Assembly (NCBI GenBank): GCA_943325355.2
Contig: CALPPA020000012.1
Coordinates: 1 to 14,961 of the forward strand
Length of the DNA stretch: 14,961 nucleotides
From: Klebsiella pneumoniae
GTDB taxonomy: Bacteria > Bacteroidota > Bacteroidia > Flavobacteriales > Flavobacteriaceae
Reading direction: 5' to 3'
Every line of letters begins with the position of its first letter. The stretch's first letter is position 1. Both the position numbers and the translations under genes were made by a program. Shown piece by piece: positions 1 to 11,987 of the stretch. Below the pieces are notes generated by a model. The model did not search any database. It saw nothing but the letters and a program-made list of their open reading frames with translations, and was not told the DNA's origin.

Positions 1-165
1 AATAGTATGGTCTGGTGATTTAAAAGTAAAAAATCCTTTGGCATTCCCACTTTTGATCAACACCGATTTCCCGTCTTTTTTGGACATTTGAAATTGAATC
101 GGTGCCATTTCGACACAATAATTGCAGCCAATACATTTGGCTCTTTGGAGCGTTACAATAACCAT
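1..165 (-). CDS. 4Fe-4S ferredoxin, partial (C-terminus beyond window)
   Basis: The reverse strand encodes 55 codons from an ATG at 165-163 to the window edge with no stop. The protein starts MVIVTLQRAKCIGCNYC and has Cys11, Cys14 and Cys17 in a CxxCxxC array followed by Pro22, the usual first half of a bacterial 4Fe-4S ferredoxin. The fourth cysteine should lie beyond the edge. The ATG overlaps the TAA stop of trhP (TAATG), so translation of the two is very likely coupled. Small ferredoxins carry single electrons between cytoplasmic enzymes. The tight link to a U32 hydroxylase suggests, by inference only, that it serves that enzyme or its Fe-S cluster. The family call is firm; the partner is not proven. 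Confidence 0.85.
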   Translation of the reverse strand, partial: MVIVTLQRAKCIGCNYCVEMAPIQFQMSKKDGKSVLIKSGNAKGFFTFKSPDHTI

Positions 166-1406
166 TAGGCTTCCACGATTTTATATAATTTGTCCGACAT
201 TCGGATGCGGAATGGTAATTTTAAAGTACAATCGTCTCCTTTTGCAGCTTTTTCTGCCACGGCATCATTCACATACATTTCTTCGATAATCATTTCTTGT
301 GCACCAGTGCTTGGACCTGTTACCAATATTTTGTCGCCAATTTTAATATCGTAAGCCTCGATTTTGAATTGTCCAATGGCTGCTTTTGGGAAAAAATGAG
401 TTCCTTTTCCAACATATACTTTTTTCTGGGTTGCCATCGATCCCGAAACATCGCTCCATTCGCCCAATTCCTGTCCGAGATAATAGCCTGCCCAAAATCC
501 GCGATTGTAAACTGTGTTCAAAGCTTCCATCCAAACCGTCACTTTTTCTTTTGAAAAGGTGTTTTCATAATAACTATCAATCGCCTCACGATAGGTTTTG
601 ATTACGGTGGCAACATATTCTGGAGCGCGACCACGTCCTTCAATTTTCAAGACTTTAATTCCGGAGTCAATCACTTGATCCAGAAAATCTATGGTACATA
701 AATCTTTTGGTGACATTAAATACTCGTTCTCAACCTCGATTTCAAAACCGGTTTCTTGGTCAATAACGGTGTATTTCTTGCGGCAATTTTGCTTGCAAGC
801 GCCACGATTTGCCGATGAATTATCAGAATGCAAACTCAAATAACATTTCCCCGAAACCGCCATACACAAAGCACCGTGACCGAAGATTTCTATTTCTACC
901 AAGTTTCGGCTTGGTCCTTTGATTTGTTCTTTTTCGATTTGTTCCGTAATTTTTTTCACTTGACGCAAACTCAATTCACGAGACAAAACGATGGTGTCTG
1001 CAAAAAGGCTGTAGAATTTTACGGTTTCAGCATTGGTCACGTTCAATTGCGTCGAAATATGAACTTCCATCCCGATTCCTCTCGCCATTGCAATAACAGC
1101 TTGATCGGAGGCAATCACTGCGGTAATTTTTGCTTCCTTGGCTTTGGCCAATAATGTTTTTACGACTGATAAATCGTGATCGTAAATAATGGTGTTTAAT
1201 GTCAGGTAACTTCGAACATTTTTGGCTTCGCAACGACGGGTAATTTCCGGCAAATCAGCTATCGTGAAATTTACGGTGGCACGAGCGCGCATATTCAATT
1301 GTTCTACGCCAAAGTAAACGGAATCTGCTCCGTTGTCAAGTCCTGCTTGCAAGGATTCGAAATTCCCGGCGGGAGCCATTAATTCTATTTTGTTATTGGT
1401 GTTCAT
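165..1406 (-). CDS. trhP: Peptidase U32 family tRNA uridine-34 5-hydroxylase TrhP
   Basis: A 413-residue U32 protein without a signal peptide, so cytoplasmic. The N-terminal barrel opens with ELMAPAGNFESL, and the U32 signature is at about 173-191 (EIFGHGALCMAVSGKC). Cys181, Cys188, Cys204/Cys208 and Cys237 resemble the spacing of Fe-S ligands in the U32 protein UbiU, so a cluster is plausible. Residues 328-413 form the U32 C-terminal domain. In E. coli, TrhP (YegQ) makes 5-hydroxyuridine at tRNA position 34 using prephenate. Despite the old name, no protease activity is expected. The ATG is 6 bases after the trhO stop, and the TAA overlaps the ferredoxin ATG, so this is the middle gene of a three-gene operon. 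Another U32 role (such as the rRNA hydroxylase RlhA) is possible, but RlhA is longer and the trhO neighbour favours TrhP. Confidence 0.85.
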   Translation of the reverse strand: MNTNNKIELMAPAGNFESLQAGLDNGADSVYFGVEQLNMRARATVNFTIADLPEITRRCEAKNVRSYLTLNTIIYDHDLSVVKTLLAKAKEAKITAVIASDQAVIAMARGIGMEVHISTQLNVTNAETVKFYSLFADTIVLSRELSLRQVKKITEQIEKEQIKGPSRNLVEIEIFGHGALCMAVSGKCYLSLHSDNSSANRGACKQNCRKKYTVIDQETGFEIEVENEYLMSPKDLCTIDFLDQVIDSGIKVLKIEGRGRAPEYVATVIKTYREAIDSYYENTFSKEKVTVWMEALNTVYNRGFWAGYYLGQELGEWSDVSGSMATQKKVYVGKGTHFFPKAAIGQFKIEAYDIKIGDKILVTGPSTGAQEMIIEEMYVNDAVAEKAAKGDDCTLKLPFRIRMSDKLYKIVEA

Positions 1407-1412
1407 AATAAA

Positions 1413-2768
1413 TTAGTTTAAAATTTTATATAATTTATCAGACAATCGAATCCTGAACGGGACTTTAAAAGTACAAGTATCTCCTGAAACAGCTTTTTCT
1501 GAAGCTATTTCGTTGACAAACATTTCGTCAATAATCATATGTTGTTCCCCAGTTGTGGAACCTTTGATGAGAATGGTATCACCAACCTTGATTTCGTTTT
1601 CCTCAATTAGAAACTGGGCAATATTTGCTTTTGGAAAAAAGTGTGTTCCTTTTCCAATATAGATTTTCTTTAATTTTGGTTCTTTCTTTAAAACTTTTTT
1701 TGTTTCTTCTGTAGTGAAAACAACATAACTTTCAATGTTGTTCTTGAAAGTCAAAACATCGGATTTCCCTTTTTTGAAAATTTTGTTTCCGTTTTTGATT
1801 CCTCTTCGAATAGCTTTTTGCTCTTCTTCCGGCAAATGAATAACCTCAACGCATTCAGTTGAACAGCAGCCTTCCATTTTTTGCTTACAAGAATCACATT
1901 GGATAAAAAGCAAATGACAACCTTCGTTGGTGCAATTAGTGTGAACGTCGCAAGGTTCACCACATTGATGGCATTGAGAAACAATATCGTCGGTGATTCT
2001 TTCGCCCAAGCGAGGGTCGAACACAAAGTTTTTTCCAATGAATTTGCTTTCCAGACCTTCGGCTTTTACTTGACGGGTGTATTCTATGATTCCGCCTTCG
2101 AGTTGGTACACGTTTTCGAAACCTTTGTGTTTGAAGTAGGCGCTGGCTTTTTCGCAACGAATTCCGCCGGTGCAATACATCAATAGTTTTTTGTCTTGTT
2201 TGTGTTCTGAAAGTTGTTCTTCGATAATGGGCAATGATTCTCTGAAAGTATCGACGTCGGGTTTTATGGCATTGGTAAAATGACCGATTTCCGATTCGTA
2301 ATGATTTCTCATATCGACCACAATCGTATTTGGGTCTTCGAGTAGTTCATTGAATTCATTGGCTTTTAGATGAATTCCAATGTTGGTTACATCGAAAGTT
2401 TCATCCACTAATCCATCAGCTACTATTTTGTCACGGACTTTTACCGTAAGTTTCAAAAAGGAATGATCGTCTTGCTCTACAGCAATGTTCAACCGAATAC
2501 CTTTCATAAAATCGTATTTTTCGATAGTGTCTTTGAAGGCATAAAAATTATCGGCAGGAATTGACAACTGAGCGTTAATTCCTTCGTTGGCAACATAAAT
2601 TCGTCCTAAAACCTCAAGTGGATTCCAAGCTAAGAATAATTCGTTACGAAATTGTGTGGGATTTGAGATTTGCGCATAAGCATAAAAAGACAATGTGAGA
2701 CGTTGCTTTCCGGCATCGTCAATCATAGTGGCTCTTTCCTCTGCGCTTAAAGTGTTGTACAGTTGCAT
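1413..2768 (-). CDS. trhO: Rhodanese-type tRNA uridine-34 5-hydroxylase TrhO with an extra C-terminal U32-like domain
   Basis: A 451-residue cytoplasmic protein. Order: an N-terminal alpha/beta domain (about 1-120) typical of TrhO/YceA, a rhodanese domain (about 125-235) with active-site loop CTGGIRC (Cys199-Cys205), and a cysteine-rich stretch at 266-306 with ten cysteines, likely metal binding. A lysine-rich linker follows, then an extra domain at 367-451. E. coli TrhO (YceA) is about 350 residues and performs O2-dependent 5-hydroxylation of tRNA U34. The extra domain closely matches the C-terminus of the neighbouring TrhP, including GKGTHFFPKA and PFRIR. The start at 2768 follows a TACCTTTG promoter box by 34 bases. 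It is the first gene of the trhO-trhP-ferredoxin operon. The enzyme assignment rests on family membership; the role of the added domain is unknown. Confidence 0.88.
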   Translation of the reverse strand: MQLYNTLSAEERATMIDDAGKQRLTLSFYAYAQISNPTQFRNELFLAWNPLEVLGRIYVANEGINAQLSIPADNFYAFKDTIEKYDFMKGIRLNIAVEQDDHSFLKLTVKVRDKIVADGLVDETFDVTNIGIHLKANEFNELLEDPNTIVVDMRNHYESEIGHFTNAIKPDVDTFRESLPIIEEQLSEHKQDKKLLMYCTGGIRCEKASAYFKHKGFENVYQLEGGIIEYTRQVKAEGLESKFIGKNFVFDPRLGERITDDIVSQCHQCGEPCDVHTNCTNEGCHLLFIQCDSCKQKMEGCCSTECVEVIHLPEEEQKAIRRGIKNGNKIFKKGKSDVLTFKNNIESYVVFTTEETKKVLKKEPKLKKIYIGKGTHFFPKANIAQFLIEENEIKVGDTILIKGSTTGEQHMIIDEMFVNEIASEKAVSGDTCTFKVPFRIRLSDKLYKILN

Positions 2769-3445: not shown

Positions 3446-4399
3446 TTATTTTTCGTCTAGTAATGTTTTTTTAATAGCTTGTAATTCTTCTAATTTTTCA
3501 GTGCTAACGGTTGGATATTCCAAGTCCATTTCATCTAAAGTAGTAATAATTGCTGATGCAATCGCAATTCTTGCATAGGATTTATCATCGGCAGGAATAA
3601 CATACCAAGGTGATTTTTTGGTCGAAGTATTTTTGATTAATTCTTGGTAAGCGTGCATATAATCATCCCAGTATTCTCTTTCTTTGACATCTCCTGTGCT
3701 AAATTTCCAATTTTTGTCTTGATCCTCAATGCGTTCAATAAAGCGTGCTTTTTGTTCTTCTTTTGATACGTTTAGAAAAATTTTGATTACGATAGTCCCA
3801 TTTCTATTTAGATATTTTTCGAAGTTGCGAATGTCTTCAAAACGTTCTTCCCAAATGTTTTTGGTTACTAACTTTTCAGCGAGTTTTTGACCTTTCAAAA
3901 TCGCTTCATGCACTCTAACCACCAGTACTTCTTCATAATAAGAACGATTAAAAATGCCAATTCGTCCTCTTTCTGGCAAATGTTTTTGACAACGCCATAA
4001 AAAATCATGGTCTAATTCTTCAGAACTAGGTGCTTTAAAAGAGGAAACTTGGCACCCTTGTGGATTTACGCCTGACATTACATGCTTAATGGCACCATCT
4101 TTCCCAGCGGCATCCATTGCTTGAAAAATAATTAATAGAGACCATTTGTCTTGAGCATACAAAATTTCTTGCATTGCAGCTAAGGCATCAACACCCATTT
4201 GTAGAGTTTCTTTAACCAATGATTTTCCTTCTGAGCCTAAATTAAAAGTGGCTTTGGTTTCAAAATCATTTAGGTTAAAATCAGCTCCTTTGCTAATACA
4301 ATATTGGTTGGAGAAATTTTTTGCATGTTGAATAAGGCCTTTTTTATTTATAGTAGTTAAAACTTTTGATTTTTCTGAAAAGGGGTTTGATTTTGACAT
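3446..4399 (-). CDS. ppk2: Polyphosphate kinase 2 family, class III-like polyphosphate:nucleotide phosphotransferase
   Basis: A 317-residue cytoplasmic PPK2 protein. The Walker A loop AMDAAGKDG is at 94-102 with Lys100. The class-typical HVMSGVNPQGCQV follows at 106-118, and the Walker B/lid region (NRSYYEEVLVVRVH) is at 151-164. PPK2 enzymes transfer phosphate between inorganic polyphosphate and nucleotides. Single-domain proteins with this motif set belong to the branch that phosphorylates AMP and/or ADP from polyphosphate (class III). The first Walker A glycine is alanine here; I recall this in related proteins and do not read it as inactivation. Length is normal. The start is the first ATG and there is no signal peptide. 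It is probably monocistronic, with an AT-rich palindrome about 20 bases upstream. No polyP-synthesising ppk1 is in the window. The family is certain; nucleotide preference is not. Confidence 0.9.
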   Translation of the reverse strand: MSKSNPFSEKSKVLTTINKKGLIQHAKNFSNQYCISKGADFNLNDFETKATFNLGSEGKSLVKETLQMGVDALAAMQEILYAQDKWSLLIIFQAMDAAGKDGAIKHVMSGVNPQGCQVSSFKAPSSEELDHDFLWRCQKHLPERGRIGIFNRSYYEEVLVVRVHEAILKGQKLAEKLVTKNIWEERFEDIRNFEKYLNRNGTIVIKIFLNVSKEEQKARFIERIEDQDKNWKFSTGDVKEREYWDDYMHAYQELIKNTSTKKSPWYVIPADDKSYARIAIASAIITTLDEMDLEYPTVSTEKLEELQAIKKTLLDEK

Positions 4400-4659: not shown

Positions 4660-5808
4660 ATGAAACAAACGTACTTTTTATCTGCAATACTATCACTTTT
4701 TATAATGCAATCGTGCAAGAAAGGAGCTGCTCCTGAAATGAAACCACTTGAAATTTCTGTTACTGAAGTTTTGGAACAAGATGTAAGACTTGAATCTGAA
4801 TTTACAGGGCAAACCTTCGGACAATCGGACATTCAAATTAATCCCAGAGTTGATGGCGTTATTGAAAGTCTTAATTTTAAAGAGGGCAGTTTGGTGACCA
4901 AAGGTCAGTTGCTATACGCCATCGATCCACTTCCATACCAAGCTAAAGTAAATCAGGCAGAAGGAGCATTGGCAGAGGTAGAAGCTACATTAGTAAAAAC
5001 CAAATCAGACTATGATATGATGGTTCCCTTAGCCAAAATGAATGCAGTGAGCCAAAGAGAATTAATAGCTGCAAAAGCGGCTTATAATGCATCGATAGCT
5101 TCTATAACTGCTTCAAAGGCAAGTTTGCAAAACGCAAAATTAGAATTGGGCTACTGCAGAATATTATCGCCAATTACAGGATTAATTGGAATTTCAAAAG
5201 TGAGAGTAGGCGATTATGTTCGTCCCGGTCCAACTTCGGTTTTGAATACCGTTTCTGATTTGGGAGATGTAAGGGTTCGTTTTACTATGAGTGAACAAGA
5301 ATTTCTGAGGATTTTCAGGGAAATAAACAAAAAAGATTCCAGTCTAAAAGGAGCAGGACAATCCATTTCATTGAAACTATCAGATGGTACGATGTATCCA
5401 CAAACAGGAAAAATGAGTTTCGCCGATAGGCAAATTGACCCAACTACTGGAGCCATAACTTTTGAAGCGGCATTCCCAAATCCTGACAAGTTATTGCGTC
5501 CAGGTCAATATGTTAAAATTGCTGTGGTTACTGATGTTCGCAAAGAAGCCTTGATTATTCCTCAACGTGCTGTTATCGAAATGCAAGGAATTTATCAGGT
5601 ATATGTTTTGGGAGATAGTAGTAAAGTTCAGATGCAAATTATCAAAACAGGACCTTCTTATAAAGACGGTTATGTGGTTGAAGAGGGTTTAAAATCGGGT
5701 GATAAAATTGCTTTGGGAGGAACTTCATTGTTGAAAAACGGAAGCGTTATTATCCCAAAAAATACTCCTTGGCAACCTGGTCAACCTCAAACAGCAACAA
5801 TAAAATAA
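4660..5808 (+). CDS. RND efflux periplasmic adaptor lipoprotein (AcrA/MexA type)
   Basis: A 382-residue membrane fusion protein. The signal sequence ends at MQSC with Cys19, so it is a periplasmic lipoprotein. Order: the first half of the barrel-sandwich (about 57-92, with GVIESLNFKEGSLVTKGQ), an alpha-helical hairpin (about 95-163, with the typical hairpin-tip region AVSQRELIAAKAAYN), then the second half of the sandwich (about 164-200, SPITGLIGISKVRVGDYV). Beta-barrel and membrane-proximal domains follow. Such adaptors join the inner-membrane RND pump to an outer-membrane channel. It is the first gene of a three-gene operon; the permease starts 18 bases after its stop. The first ATG is chosen because it opens the signal peptide. 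The substrate cannot be read from the sequence. Confidence 0.93.
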   Translation: MKQTYFLSAILSLFIMQSCKKGAAPEMKPLEISVTEVLEQDVRLESEFTGQTFGQSDIQINPRVDGVIESLNFKEGSLVTKGQLLYAIDPLPYQAKVNQAEGALAEVEATLVKTKSDYDMMVPLAKMNAVSQRELIAAKAAYNASIASITASKASLQNAKLELGYCRILSPITGLIGISKVRVGDYVRPGPTSVLNTVSDLGDVRVRFTMSEQEFLRIFREINKKDSSLKGAGQSISLKLSDGTMYPQTGKMSFADRQIDPTTGAITFEAAFPNPDKLLRPGQYVKIAVVTDVRKEALIIPQRAVIEMQGIYQVYVLGDSSKVQMQIIKTGPSYKDGYVVEEGLKSGDKIALGGTSLLKNGSVIIPKNTPWQPGQPQTATIK

Positions 5809-5826
5809 TTTTAGAGAACTAGTATT

Positions 5827-8800
5827 ATGGGAGAATTTTTCGTTCGAAGACCAATTGTTGCTATGGTAATCAGTATCATCATTGTGATACTTGGATTGCT
5901 GGCATTGCAAAAAACACCTATTTCACAATATCCAGATATCAATCCACCGGTTGTAAAAATCACCACTAGTTTTACAGGAGCTAATGCCTTGAATGTGGAG
6001 CAAGCTGTTGCCACTCCTATTGAACAAAAAGTGAATGGCGTTGAGAAAATGTTGTATATAAAATCAATCAACACTTCTGATGGTGCTTGTACTATTGAAG
6101 TAACTTTTGATGTTGGGACTAACTTGGATAATGCCAATATGCTTACGCAAAATAGGCAGAATCAATCGTCGCCTTTTATGCCTTCAAGTGTAAAACAACA
6201 GGGTGTAGTGGTAAAAAAATCATTATCATTCCCAATGATGTTAATTACCATCACATCGGACAATCCAAAATTTGATGCCAAATTTTTGAATAACTATGCC
6301 AGCATCAATGTTCTTGATCAATTATCACGTATAAAAGGAGTTGGTGAAGTGGCTCTTTTTGGTGGAAGTGATTATGCTATGCGGGTTTGGTTGAAACCAG
6401 ATGTAATGTCCAAATTGGGCGTTACTGTTGACGATGTGAAAAATGCCTTAAACTCTCAAAATATGATCAGTCCCGGTGGAAAATTCGGAGCTGAACCTGC
6501 ACCAACGGGAACTGATTTTACTTATGGCGTTACACTTCAAGATCGTTTAGTTACCGAAAAGCAATTTGCCAATATCGTTGTTCGAAGTAAGGAAGATGGC
6601 GCTCAAGTTTTATTAAGTGACATTGCTCGTATCGAATTAGGAACTGAGAATTATAGTTCATCGGCTCGAAGAAACAATGCGCCGAGTGCCGCTCTTGCCT
6701 TATATCAAATGCCAGGAAGTAATGCATTGGAAGTAGCTGCTGAAGTAAAAAAAGCAATGAAGCAAGTCTCAGAAAAATTCCCTGAAGGTATAAAATACCA
6801 AGAGTCTCTAGATACTACACTGGCGATAACTGCGGGCGTTGATGATATTGTTCACACCCTGTTTGAAGCCATTTTATTGGTAATTCTAGTTGTATTTATC
6901 TTTTTGCAAAATTGGCGTGCAACATTAATTCCATTGATTACTGTACCCGTTTCGTTGATTGGTACCATTGCGGTTTTTCCTTTGTTGGGATTCTCAATCA
7001 ATACTTTGTCACTATTAGGACTGGTTTTGGCTATTGGTATTGTCGTCGATGATGCCATTGTAGTAGTAGAAGCTGTAATACATCACATTGAAAAAGGGAA
7101 GACCCCACGAGAGGCGACGATTCAGGCTATGAAAGAAGTTTCTGGACCTGTAATTGCAATTGCTTTAATTTTGTGTGCGGTTTTTATTCCTGTGGCAATG
7201 ACACCGGGTATTACTGGTCGTTTTTACCAGCAATTTGCTATTACCATAGCCGTATCTGTTGCTTTTTCTGCTTTTAGTGCGTTGTCACTGAGTCCTGCTC
7301 TTTGTGCAATGTTATTGAAACCTACTAAACCAGTAGAAGAACAAACCGGATGGTTGGCCAAATTCTTTGCTGGCTTCAATAGAGTTTTCGAAAAAGTTAC
7401 TGGTGGTTATTTAAAGGGAGCTACTTTTTTTGCCAAAAAATCGATGCGAATTGTTGCTTTACTTGGCGTCATATTACTTGGCGTTGTTCTGCTTGGCAAA
7501 AAAATACCAATGGGATTTATTCCAGAAGAAGATCAAGGATATGTACTGGTCAATATTGTCTTACCTCCTGCCTCATCCTTACAGCGCACCGCTGAAGTTT
7601 CGAAAAAAGTAGACAGCTTTCTAGCGGAAGAAGAATCAATATTGTCTTATACCACGATAAACGGATACAGTGCACTTACCAGTTCGTTTCAGCCAAACAC
7701 CGCATTCGTATTTATTTCTTTAAAACCTTGGGAAGAACGTTCAGAAACGGCAAAGCAAGTGCTAGACAAATTAAATATGAAGCTTTCTACTCAGATTACC
7801 AATGCGACTGCATTTGCCTTTGGGCCGCCTGCGGTTCAAGGACTGGGAGCTTCAGCTGGATTTAGTATGATGTTACAAGATAGAGGAGGTAATTCACCTC
7901 AATATTTGGCACAGCAAACACAAGCATTTTTAGCTGCTGCTCAAAAACGTCCTGAAATAAAGAGGGTTTATAGCACTTATAATGCTGGAACGCCTCAAAT
8001 TAAATTAGAGATTGACAACGACAAAGCAATGAAACTAGGTGTTCCTGTTTCGAAAGTCACTGAAGCTTTGGGGGCATTTTTAGGAGGAACCTATGTAAAT
8101 GACTTTAATCGTTTTGGTCGTCAATATAAAGTCTATTTACAAGGAGAAGCTGTTGATAGGGTGAAACCTGAAAACTTAAATCTAATTTATGTAAAAAATA
8201 ATAATGGAGATATGTTGCCAATTTCTACTTTAGTGACCGCAACAAAAGTTAATGGTCCTGAATTTACAAACCGTTTGAATCTTTTTCGTTCGGCAGAAAT
8301 TGGCGGAGGTCCAGCAGAAGGTTACAGTTTCATAGAGGCCCAAAATGCTTTAGAGGAAGTTGCAAAAGAAACCCTACCGGCAGATATGAGTTATGACTTT
8401 ATCAATCTATCGTATCAGATAAAACATTCACCAAGCGGAAGCTCGGTATTTCTAATGGCATTAATATTCGTGTTCTTAATTCTAGCAGCACAGTACGAAA
8501 GTTGGAAATTACCTTTTAGTGTATTACTTGGAGCACCACTGGCCGTTTTTGGAGCGTTTTTAGGTTTGTTTTTAGCTAGATTTACGAGCGACGCTTATGT
8601 GAATAATGTATTTGCCCAAATTGGATTGGTATTGCTTATTGGATTGGTGGCGAAAAATGCGATTCTTATTGTAGAATTCGCCAAAGAAGAGCACGAAAGG
8701 GGAACGCCTTTGTACCAAGCTGCGATGGTAGCTGCAAAGCTTCGTTTTCGTCCGATATTGATGACCGCTTTTGCATTTATTCTTGGAGTTGTCCCTTTGT

Positions 8801-8997
8801 TAACAGCCACTGGTGCAGGTTCTCAAGCGCGAATTGTGATGGGTATGGCGGTATTTTCAGGGATGTTAATTGCTACGGTTCTAGGTATATTAATTGTACC
8901 TGGTTTATACGTCGCTATTGAAAATATCGGAAAAAAGAAAGAATTGGTTTCAGATGAAGAAAATAATACGGATTCAAAAACAACAAATCATGAATAG
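5827..8997 (+). CDS. RND multidrug efflux permease, HAE1 family (AcrB type)
   Basis: A full-length 1056-residue inner-membrane proton antiporter. It starts GEFFVRRPIVAMV, the usual amphipathic helix and first membrane helix of AcrB-like pumps. The proton-relay residues are present: Asp408-Asp409 (VVDDAIVVVE), Lys943 (GLVAKNAILIVEFAKE), and Arg973 and Thr980 (RFRPILMT). Two large periplasmic loops follow membrane helices 1 and 7, as in the family. The two adjacent aspartates and overall size fit a drug/amphiphile (HAE1) pump, not a heavy-metal (CzcA) pump. It would export hydrophobic compounds from the periplasm or inner membrane through the adaptor and channel encoded on either side. Its last 8 bases overlap the start of the outer-membrane gene, consistent with coupled translation. 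The drug range is unknown. Confidence 0.95.
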   Translation: MGEFFVRRPIVAMVISIIIVILGLLALQKTPISQYPDINPPVVKITTSFTGANALNVEQAVATPIEQKVNGVEKMLYIKSINTSDGACTIEVTFDVGTNLDNANMLTQNRQNQSSPFMPSSVKQQGVVVKKSLSFPMMLITITSDNPKFDAKFLNNYASINVLDQLSRIKGVGEVALFGGSDYAMRVWLKPDVMSKLGVTVDDVKNALNSQNMISPGGKFGAEPAPTGTDFTYGVTLQDRLVTEKQFANIVVRSKEDGAQVLLSDIARIELGTENYSSSARRNNAPSAALALYQMPGSNALEVAAEVKKAMKQVSEKFPEGIKYQESLDTTLAITAGVDDIVHTLFEAILLVILVVFIFLQNWRATLIPLITVPVSLIGTIAVFPLLGFSINTLSLLGLVLAIGIVVDDAIVVVEAVIHHIEKGKTPREATIQAMKEVSGPVIAIALILCAVFIPVAMTPGITGRFYQQFAITIAVSVAFSAFSALSLSPALCAMLLKPTKPVEEQTGWLAKFFAGFNRVFEKVTGGYLKGATFFAKKSMRIVALLGVILLGVVLLGKKIPMGFIPEEDQGYVLVNIVLPPASSLQRTAEVSKKVDSFLAEEESILSYTTINGYSALTSSFQPNTAFVFISLKPWEERSETAKQVLDKLNMKLSTQITNATAFAFGPPAVQGLGASAGFSMMLQDRGGNSPQYLAQQTQAFLAAAQKRPEIKRVYSTYNAGTPQIKLEIDNDKAMKLGVPVSKVTEALGAFLGGTYVNDFNRFGRQYKVYLQGEAVDRVKPENLNLIYVKNNNGDMLPISTLVTATKVNGPEFTNRLNLFRSAEIGGGPAEGYSFIEAQNALEEVAKETLPADMSYDFINLSYQIKHSPSGSSVFLMALIFVFLILAAQYESWKLPFSVLLGAPLAVFGAFLGLFLARFTSDAYVNNVFAQIGLVLLIGLVAKNAILIVEFAKEEHERGTPLYQAAMVAAKLRFRPILMTAFAFILGVVPLLTATGAGSQARIVMGMAVFSGMLIATVLGILIVPGLYVAIENIGKKKELVSDEENNTDSKTTNHE

Positions 8998-10357
8998 TAA
9001 AATAAAAATAGTTGTTGTAATTCTTATACTTGCTATACTTCCGGTAGGATGTTTGGTAGGACCTAAATATAAAAAGCCTGAAAATCAAAATGCAGCTACT
9101 TTTCAAAACAGTGCGGCAAATGTAGATACTTTAGCCTCTGTAGTAAATGTTAAATGGTTTGATCTTTTTAATGATGATGTTCTGAAAGGACTTATCACCA
9201 AAGGATTAGCCAACAATTATGATATAAAAATCGCTCTAGCTCGAATAGATCGTACTCGGGCGGAATTAGGCTATACCAAAGCCGATTTATTACCAGCCAT
9301 TGGATATAGAGCAACAGTAAATAGTAATGAAAAAGCATTTCCATTCTCCAATGCATCGGCAGCGCTTTCTTGGGAATTGGACTTTTGGGGCAAAATTCGA
9401 CACGAAAACAGAGCCGTTCAAAATGAATTATTGGCAAGCGAAGAAGGTCGTAAAGTGATTCTGTCTAATTTGGTGAGCGATATTGCGGTAACGTATTTCC
9501 AACTTCGTGATTTTGACAATCGTTTGGTCATTTCTCAAAACACTTTAGAAACCAGACAAAAAGGATATGATATCATAAATCAAAGGTTTAAAGCAGGATA
9601 CGTTTCAGAAGTGGATTTAATGCAAATCGAACAACAAGTAGCCATTGCCGAAGCTACTATTCCCGCAATTCAACGCCAAATCACCATTCTTGAAAACACC
9701 ATTTCAATACTAATTGGTCAAGTTCCTGGACCTATCCAACGTGGTAAAACTAGTTCTGAACTTCAAGTGTCTAAAGATATACCTGTTTCAATCCCATCTA
9801 TTTTATTAAGAAACAGACCCGATGTAAACAGAGCTGAAAAAGCCTATATGGCAGCTAATGAAAGAATTGGTGTGGCTCAAGCCTTGCGTTTTCCGTCTTT
9901 TAATATTGCAGCTTTAGCTGGTTTTTCTAACAGTTCTATAAGTTCTTTGTTTGATGGATCTTCTTATTTGCAAAACGCTAGTGCAGGTGTTGCAGGTCCA
10001 ATTTTTAATTTTGGAAAAAATAAACGTAGAGTTGAGATTTACCGTCAAATTGCTGAAGAATCTAGACTTTCTTATCAAAAAACGTGTATAGTAGCTGTTG
10101 CTGAAGTAGAACAATCCTTGCAAAACGTGAAAACCTACAAAGAGGAATGGACAGCCCGAAACAGGCAAGTAGTTGCGGCCAGAAAAAACTTTGAACTCTC
10201 CAATGCCAGATATTATAACGGTTATGTTTCTTATTTGGAAGTCCTGGATATTCAACGTTCTTTATTTGAAGCCGAATTAAGTCTCTCGGAATTAACACAA
10301 AACCAACTGAGTTCTATGATTCAATTGTATAAATCCTTAGGAGGTGGATGGAATTAA
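8990..10357 (+). CDS. Outer-membrane efflux lipoprotein, NodT/OprM family (TolC-like)
   Basis: A 455-residue channel protein from ATG at 8990. The open frame reaches further upstream inside the permease gene, but this ATG alone gives a proper lipoprotein signal (MNSKIKIVVVILILAILPVGC, Cys21). VGPKYKKPE, the usual start of NodT-type factors, follows directly. Two OEP repeats form the rest. ALSWELDFWGKIRHENRA and SRLSYQKT-like helices mark the first and second alpha-barrel halves, and RNRPDVNRAEKAY is a typical inter-repeat motif. Trimers form the outer-membrane exit duct of the pump. The start overlaps the permease stop by 8 bases, so it is the third gene of the operon. Two stem-loops with T-tracts follow immediately. 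Confidence 0.93.
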   Translation: MNSKIKIVVVILILAILPVGCLVGPKYKKPENQNAATFQNSAANVDTLASVVNVKWFDLFNDDVLKGLITKGLANNYDIKIALARIDRTRAELGYTKADLLPAIGYRATVNSNEKAFPFSNASAALSWELDFWGKIRHENRAVQNELLASEEGRKVILSNLVSDIAVTYFQLRDFDNRLVISQNTLETRQKGYDIINQRFKAGYVSEVDLMQIEQQVAIAEATIPAIQRQITILENTISILIGQVPGPIQRGKTSSELQVSKDIPVSIPSILLRNRPDVNRAEKAYMAANERIGVAQALRFPSFNIAALAGFSNSSISSLFDGSSYLQNASAGVAGPIFNFGKNKRRVEIYRQIAEESRLSYQKTCIVAVAEVEQSLQNVKTYKEEWTARNRQVVAARKNFELSNARYYNGYVSYLEVLDIQRSLFEAELSLSELTQNQLSSMIQLYKSLGGGWN

Positions 10358-10538: not shown

Positions 10539-11987
10539 ATGAAAATTTCTCTTGAAAATAAAATACTTATAGGATTTATCGTCAACTTGGTTGTTGTCAT
10601 TGCTTCGGGATGGATTTTTATCTCACGACTAGACAAACAAAGAAATAAAGAGATGGACACCATATTAGATTGGATTGAACTGTCTTTGTTCGGGCTTTCG
10701 ATTGTCTTATTAGTTATTGTTTATTTCATTATTCAATCTCAATTAAAGGCCAAAAATATTTCTCAAAAACTACTTTCTGACAACAAACAGCTGCTTCAAT
10801 CCATTATTGACAACACTTCAAACCCTATCTTTATTAAAGAAATTAATGGACAATATTTATTGATTAATAAACAATATGAGTCTTTATTTCACATCTCGAA
10901 TGAAGAAATAATTGGTAAAACCGACTATGATTTCTTGACTAAAGAAGTTGCAGATGCCTATCGAAATTCTGATCTAGAGGTGGTAAAAGCACTACGGGAA
11001 CTAAAAACTGAAGAGACTATTGAACAACCTGACGGCAGACATATTTACATTGCCGTTAAATTCCCATTGTATGATGCTGATGGAAGAGTTTATGCTATTG
11101 GAGGTATTTCAACTGATATCACCGAAAGAAAAAAAATGGAAGAATCTTTAAAGGAGGCTGTCAAATTCTTCAATATGTCATTTGACATTCTTACCGTAGC
11201 GAAAGACGAGCATTTTATCAAAATTAATCCTGCTCTGACAAAAACTCTTGGATATGACCAAGAGGATATGAACCGGATAAAATTTATGGATTTAATTCAT
11301 CCCGATGATTCAAAAATTGCCAATGAAGTTTTGGCTAGTCATTTAAAAGGCAACCCTGTCGCTCATCTCAGGACACGTTTTCTTTGTAAAGACGGAACCC
11401 ACAAATGGTTAGATTGGAATAGTAATATCGATATGAAACAAGGAGTGTTTTATTCTGTTGCGAGAGACGTAACGGAACTGGTTCAATTAGAAATGGAGAA
11501 GGAAATTGCGACTAATGAACTTTATCAGGACGAAGAAAAATTAAGATTGATAGTCGAAAATATTGGAGAGGGAATTATTGTGGCCAATGCCAATAAAAAA
11601 ATAATTTTGGCTAATGATATGGCCAATACCCTTTTTGGAATCAAGGAAGATGATAAAATCTCATCTAACTTTGTCAATCATTTTGAAGTTTATTTCCCAG
11701 ATCAAAAAACTGTTTTTCCTTCCCAAAACTTGCCTATGGAGCGTGCTTTTAATGGCGAAGCTACTGATGATATTGATGTGATGCTTTGGGATCCCAACAA
11801 ACAGGAAAAGAAACGAGTTCTAATTAGTGGAAGACCCTTAGTAGATCAAAACAACAACGTAGTTGCAGCAGTTGTTACAATAAAGGATATCAGCAAATAC
11901 AAACAATTAGAGGAAGAACTGAAGGAAACCGAATTAAAGTATCGTCAATTAATAGGCTATAAAACAGGCTCGAGTAAAGAATCTTAG
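10539..11987 (+). CDS. Membrane-anchored triple-PAS protein without an output domain
   Basis: A 482-residue protein with two membrane helices (about 8-29 and 46-67) and a short extracytoplasmic loop. Three cytoplasmic PAS domains follow: about 81-198 (closing with GGISTDITERKKMEE), 203-320 (closing with YSVARDVTELVQLE) and 331-458 (closing with VVTIKDISKYKQLEEE). Helical linkers join them. The last linker (ELKETELKYRQLIG) is the sequence that normally leads into a further PAS or a histidine-kinase domain, but the protein stops 12 residues later. No HisKA, HATPase, GGDEF, EAL, phosphatase or DNA-binding domain is present. A strong terminator follows within 15 bases, so output cannot be hidden in another frame. 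It may be a truncated histidine kinase or an input partner for another kinase. The ligand is unknown. Confidence 0.85.
   Translation: MKISLENKILIGFIVNLVVVIASGWIFISRLDKQRNKEMDTILDWIELSLFGLSIVLLVIVYFIIQSQLKAKNISQKLLSDNKQLLQSIIDNTSNPIFIKEINGQYLLINKQYESLFHISNEEIIGKTDYDFLTKEVADAYRNSDLEVVKALRELKTEETIEQPDGRHIYIAVKFPLYDADGRVYAIGGISTDITERKKMEESLKEAVKFFNMSFDILTVAKDEHFIKINPALTKTLGYDQEDMNRIKFMDLIHPDDSKIANEVLASHLKGNPVAHLRTRFLCKDGTHKWLDWNSNIDMKQGVFYSVARDVTELVQLEMEKEIATNELYQDEEKLRLIVENIGEGIIVANANKKIILANDMANTLFGIKEDDKISSNFVNHFEVYFPDQKTVFPSQNLPMERAFNGEATDDIDVMLWDPNKQEKKRVLISGRPLVDQNNNVVAAVVTIKDISKYKQLEEELKETELKYRQLIGYKTGSSKES

Follow-up and report, generated by a model that had tools for sequence, protein, structure and literature searches.

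The window, i.e. the whole stretch of DNA analysed here (14,961 nt, positions 1 to 14,961 of contig CALPPA020000012.1 in assembly GCA_943325355.2), contains near its left end a trhO gene and, just downstream, a gene for a U32 protein resembling TrhP (Table 1), and the products of the two genes share a C-terminal domain. In a BLASTP comparison of the window proteins, residues 367-450 of TrhO were aligned without gaps with residues 328-411 of the U32 protein (55/84 identical and 68/84 similar positions; E 3e-36), and in an independent computation the local alignment score of this pair was 304, compared with a maximum of 51 among 2000 shuffles. An earlier note on this DNA had proposed that TrhO carries a copy of the C-terminal domain of its neighbour, and these results bear the proposal out, over 84 rather than 85 positions. 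The similarity that the note had seen between the DNA of the two domain regions was also recovered: 178 of 252 nucleotides are identical, with 66, 70, and 42 of 84 at codon positions 1, 2, and 3, respectively, and the best other alignment of 252 nt kept in frame between these genes reached 100/252 (one fifth of the offsets were tried). A repeat search paired 178-425 with 1423-1670 (71% over 248 nt). The likeness between the two proteins breaks off sharply at the first residues of the domain, KK.

With NCBIfam model NF001133 (TrhO), the window TrhO scores 266.5 bits, above the cut-off of 170, and it contains the CxGGxR active-site loop as CTGGIR (residues 199-204). Its core is similar to that of Escherichia coli TrhO (YceA), an oxygen-dependent tRNA U34 hydroxylase, sharing the CxGGxR loop and 178 of 339 residues (53%) over window residues 3-340. 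The E. coli protein is reported to make 5-hydroxyuridine at position 34 (ho5U34) on tRNA in the passages seen of PMC6599085. Unlike the window TrhO, E. coli TrhO (350 aa) has no C-terminal barrel; as the note had stated, it lacks the extension, and nothing in it corresponds to the sequence past window residue 340, where the alignment stops. The best NCBIfam model for the U32 protein is TrhP (NF011996), and all 25 scanned relatives of this protein matched the same model at E up to 1e-5. Because its score of 198.8 bits is far below the 534-bit cut-off of this equivalog model, however, the protein is here named TrhP-like, so that the name TrhP used in the note stands as a U32, TrhP-like assignment and not as full identity. 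The protein shows ~28% identity to E. coli TrhP (YegQ), a prephenate-dependent tRNA U34 hydroxylase, and shares its order of Peptidase_U32 followed by a C-terminal barrel; its residues E173, C181, and C188 align with E162, C170, and C177 of E. coli TrhP, in which the Glu and two Cys are essential according to the passages available from PMC6599085. The same passages note a C-terminal motif on E. coli TrhP and Bacillus subtilis YrrO.

The shared domain is predicted to fold as a β-barrel. The structure that best matches the predicted domain is the one solved for the C-terminal domain of the Geobacillus thermoleovorans U32 peptidase (PDB 4he5/4he6), with a sequence identity of only 16%. On the basis of this predicted fold, which agrees with both PF16325 and the barrel of the EF-Tu domain 2 superfamily, the domain is probably a divergent Peptidase_U32_C (PF16325) barrel of the EF-Tu-domain-2 type. 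Domain 2 of EF-Tu/EF1A, IF2, and EF-Sec has the barrel fold predicted here, although the window domain has no attached GTPase. Pfam PF16325 was matched by 31 of 72 domain copies (best E 2.4e-5) and, at E up to 0.01, by 3 of the 51 TrhO rows taken at full length. Two sequence comparisons count against the copied-barrel account given below: the copies in the window gave no match to Pfam Peptidase_U32_C at E up to 1, and a profile comparison with the C-terminal domain of E. coli TrhP was weak (E 0.0028, probability 11%). A PDB search at E up to 1 returned no sequence relatives for either the TrhO domain or the complete TrhP-like protein. Elsewhere, in the cases seen here, Peptidase_U32_C resides on U32 proteins, and the TrhP-like copy follows Peptidase_U32, whereas the TrhO copy follows a rhodanese-type core. 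The barrel is a normal part of the U32 protein and an added part of TrhO, and the note's view that two unrelated folds share one appended domain is upheld; the domain, which the note had not named, is probably of the known Peptidase_U32_C type. In the full-length TrhO model, the predicted local distance difference test (pLDDT) score is <50 at residues 325-334 and 346-362, which suggests that the domain is a tethered module.

Table 1. Genes and gene parts at the left end of the window
Feature	Position	Strand	Evidence
trhO gene, including the C-terminal extension (451 aa)	1413..2768	minus	NCBIfam NF001133; Pfam UPF0176_N, Rhodanese, Rhodanese_C
TrhO catalytic core (residues 1-344)	1737..2768	minus	alignment to E. 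coli TrhO
Lys-rich linker of TrhO (residues 345-366)	1671..1736	minus	low pLDDT; not in short TrhOs
Domain copy on TrhO (residues 367-451)	1416..1670	minus	BLASTP, predicted fold, and structural match
Intergenic spacer between trhO and the TrhP-like gene (6 bases)	1407..1412	minus	
TrhP-like U32 gene (413 aa), downstream of trhO	165..1406	minus	Pfam Peptidase_U32, 234.7 bits
Domain copy on the TrhP-like protein (residues 328-413)	168..425	minus	BLASTP

In a survey of the order (146 genomes), TrhO was found in 103 genomes and the domain in 56. The domain is present on 40 of the 103 TrhOs, namely all 16 in the genus of the window (window included) and all 24 in the family Weeksellaceae, and the other 63 lack it (27 of these were read as sequences, and 36 were judged by short open frames and the lack of a domain match). 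The genus is Flavobacterium according to the named proteins among the 120 listed of 743 matches. TrhOs from 12 of 12 sampled sister-genus genomes lack the domain. TrhP-size U32 genes were identified in 32 of the 146 genomes, and all 32 carry it. In a survey of the phylum (198 genomes), TrhO was found in 110 genomes, and the 12 bearing the domain all belong to Flavobacterium or Weeksellaceae, as judged by comparing coordinates by eye. The rarity on which the note's proposal depended was therefore found within Bacteroidota (12 of 110 TrhO genomes); elsewhere, only E. coli was compared. A scan with a Weeksellaceae TrhO returned 540 relatives; the 80 retained all come from Weeksellaceae and all carry the domain, with a TrhP-like gene in the adjoining flank in 7 of these 80. 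The idea that the extended TrhO substitutes for TrhP was rejected, as TrhP-size U32 genes occur in 16 of 40 genomes with extended TrhO and in 4 of 63 with short TrhO, a trend opposite to that expected (the genomes are related). Proteins consisting of the domain alone were also considered, but among the best 120 of 281 short matches most lie on short contigs and are probably fragments. A decayed second domain copy with 2 internal stops was seen in a distant Bacteroidota genome (G250:C4:561008-561229), ~3 kb from the intact copy. Many Flavobacterium genomes (e.g. G114:C9 and G122:C7) encode a second, longer U32 protein with open frames of 621-639 aa, similar in size to E. coli RlhA (653 aa).

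The trees point to a single origin of the domain on TrhO. In a tree of TrhO cores with the extension cut off (75 rows; 14 distant rows of 89 omitted), the 40 extended TrhOs form one clade (100/99.9), and in a broader core tree of all 89 rows, obtained by a short search, this clade has a support of 99. In a tree of the domains (71 rows; one very long row, G045, of 72 was dropped), the 40 TrhO copies again form one clade (100/92.8), which groups with the TrhP-like copies of the genus at 91/88. When the best domain tree was rooted on distant copies, the TrhO copies were nested inside the TrhP-like copies, the pattern that the note had sought from such a tree, and independent origin, which it had named as an outcome against its proposal, is not what the trees show. 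Two types of TrhO domain can be distinguished: type B, represented by the window copy and those of four relatives, and type A, which comprises the remaining 35. Mean identity to the TrhP-like domains of the genus is 60% for type B and 47-48% for type A, and a constraint holding type B with those domains was not rejected (p 0.26), as would be expected had there been two events, i.e. separate fusions of types A and B or replacement of the type B domain by a TrhP-like copy. Such a double history appears improbable, however, given the single clades of both domains and cores; moreover, only 3 of the 16 genomes have their own domain pair ranked first, which argues against recent conversion and led us to reject ongoing gene conversion between the neighbours.

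In the core tree, a constraint uniting all TrhOs from the window's family to the exclusion of Weeksellaceae was rejected (p 1.2e-5), so the fused gene appears to have crossed families: if family labels follow species history, it was passed between Flavobacterium and Weeksellaceae lineages. In the TrhP-like tree, too, the window's family tends to come apart (p 0.03), so that this tree provides no clean species yardstick. Several results weigh against a more precise history. A separate clade of the extended TrhOs of the genus, without Weeksellaceae, was not rejected (p 0.41), which bears on the direction of transfer. Placement of the TrhO domains with the Weeksellaceae TrhP-like copies (p 0.41), which bears on the donor lineage, and separation of the genus TrhP-like copies from the TrhO domains (p 0.41) were likewise not rejected, nor was placement of the TrhO domains with other Flavobacteriaceae TrhP-like copies (p 0.067). 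The grouping of type A TrhO cores as a clade (92/96) was also counted against a sharper account. Of the local duplication and fusion proposed in the note, the results support a single origin on TrhO, a place of the TrhO copies beside the TrhP-like copies and, in the best rooted tree, inside them, and adjacency of the two genes; more than one TrhP-like lineage is a candidate donor.

The gene order is consistent with a local event. In all 20 sampled genomes having both genes, these lie on one strand, no more than 1631 nt apart and in some cases overlapping; trhO is the upstream gene in 19 of these genomes. In genome G081 (L085 1764-4352), the order is reversed, with the TrhP-like gene upstream of a short TrhO. 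The short TrhOs of sister genera, which lack the linker residues, end at the linker start of the extended TrhOs or a few residues from it. Our best reading is one duplication and fusion at the old trhO stop codon, followed by transfer between families. The C-terminal barrel of the neighbouring TrhP-like U32 RNA hydroxylase would have been copied and, in a single event, fused to the 3′ end of trhO at the former stop codon, via a new flexible linker. The simplest route would be a duplication of the downstream gene, either whole or only its end, with everything between trhO and the domain of the duplicate lost subsequently. A candidate third domain copy on contig C172 of the same metagenome-assembled genome was rejected, as the first 341 nt of this contig match window positions 1-341 at 95.6%, which is better explained by a strain variant or by overlapping contigs. 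This overlap of C172 (L003 1-341) with the left end of the window suggests that strains were mixed or contigs left unjoined; beyond it, C172 contains a 98-aa open reading frame that we take to be ferredoxin-like and another that is presumably PSP1-like.

The domain on TrhO is under purifying selection, weaker than that on the core yet real. Ratios of nonsynonymous to synonymous substitution rates (dN/dS) were usable for 2 of 10 type B pairs, 18 of 28 genus type A pairs (8 of 11 sequences), and 16 of 55 Weeksellaceae type A pairs (11 of 24 sequences). Median values for these three sets were 0.090, 0.097, and 0.065 for the domain and 0.025, 0.029, and 0.018 for the core, respectively. The domain could be dispensable baggage retained by chance, as the sampled sister-genus TrhOs manage without it and, in 35 of the 36 usable pairs, its dN/dS is higher than the value for the core, a weaker constraint that also counts against our favoured account; yet the largest usable domain value, 0.173, is far below 1, and in the two groups every sampled TrhO (40 of 40) has the domain, which makes chance retention very unlikely. 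Because E. coli TrhO works without such a domain, its role on TrhO is accessory.

The fold is common to translation factors that handle tRNA and the domain occurs on two U34 enzymes; RNA docking may therefore be its likeliest role, and we lean towards it with moderate confidence. The barrel on both enzymes would act as a tethered RNA-docking module that grips parts of the tRNA other than the anticodon during hydroxylation of U34 by the catalytic core. A basic residue occupies each of nine positions in at least 94% of the 40 TrhO copies and likewise of the 32 TrhP-like ones. Against this role, the domain carries a low net charge (about +1 to +3.5), and proteins that bind other proteins also have this fold. 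The main rival is a protein-docking module that brings TrhO and the TrhP-like protein to one partner (for example the translation machinery, or a methyltransferase acting downstream) or that forms oligomers. Barrels of this fold make protein contacts too, and the product of the two enzymes sharing the domain would feed one next step. No partner was found, however: CmoB was above its cut-off in 0 of 31 Flavobacterium genomes (TrmR-type enzymes were not searched). Furthermore, 24 of the 40 genomes with extended TrhO have no TrhP-size U32 gene, indicating that the domain does not act solely through TrhP, and with the nine basic positions among the conserved ones we regard protein docking as rather unlikely. 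The account combining the copied-barrel fusion with RNA docking seems to us, taken as a whole, somewhat more probable than otherwise.

A further, tentative possibility, which we think doubtful on present analyses, is that the U32_C barrel serves as a portable cassette for tRNA recognition, the copying of which gave TrhO part of the tRNA preference of a TrhP-type enzyme. The tRNAs favoured by E. coli TrhP and TrhO differ, according to passages of PMC6599085; if the cassette reading were true, two non-homologous ho5U34 hydroxylases would share one substrate-selecting module. No assigned role for the U32_C domain was found in those passages, and no published description of the domain on TrhO was found in the open-licence literature, which was covered as search listings, with PMC6599085 in passages. 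The fusion represents a natural domain swap, in which one small domain moved between non-homologous enzymes thought to modify the same nucleotide alike, and marks the U32_C domain as a shared part that probably handles the substrate in both. Short TrhOs and their extended counterparts, with or without a TrhP-like gene next to them, provide a ready, matched comparison set.

Elsewhere in the window, a 482-aa PAS-domain protein is encoded at 10539-11987, with no kinase or other output domain detected by Pfam at E up to 0.001. A PPK2-family gene is located at 3446-4399, and positions 4660-10357 contain a gene set for a membrane-fusion protein, an RND pump, and outer-membrane efflux.
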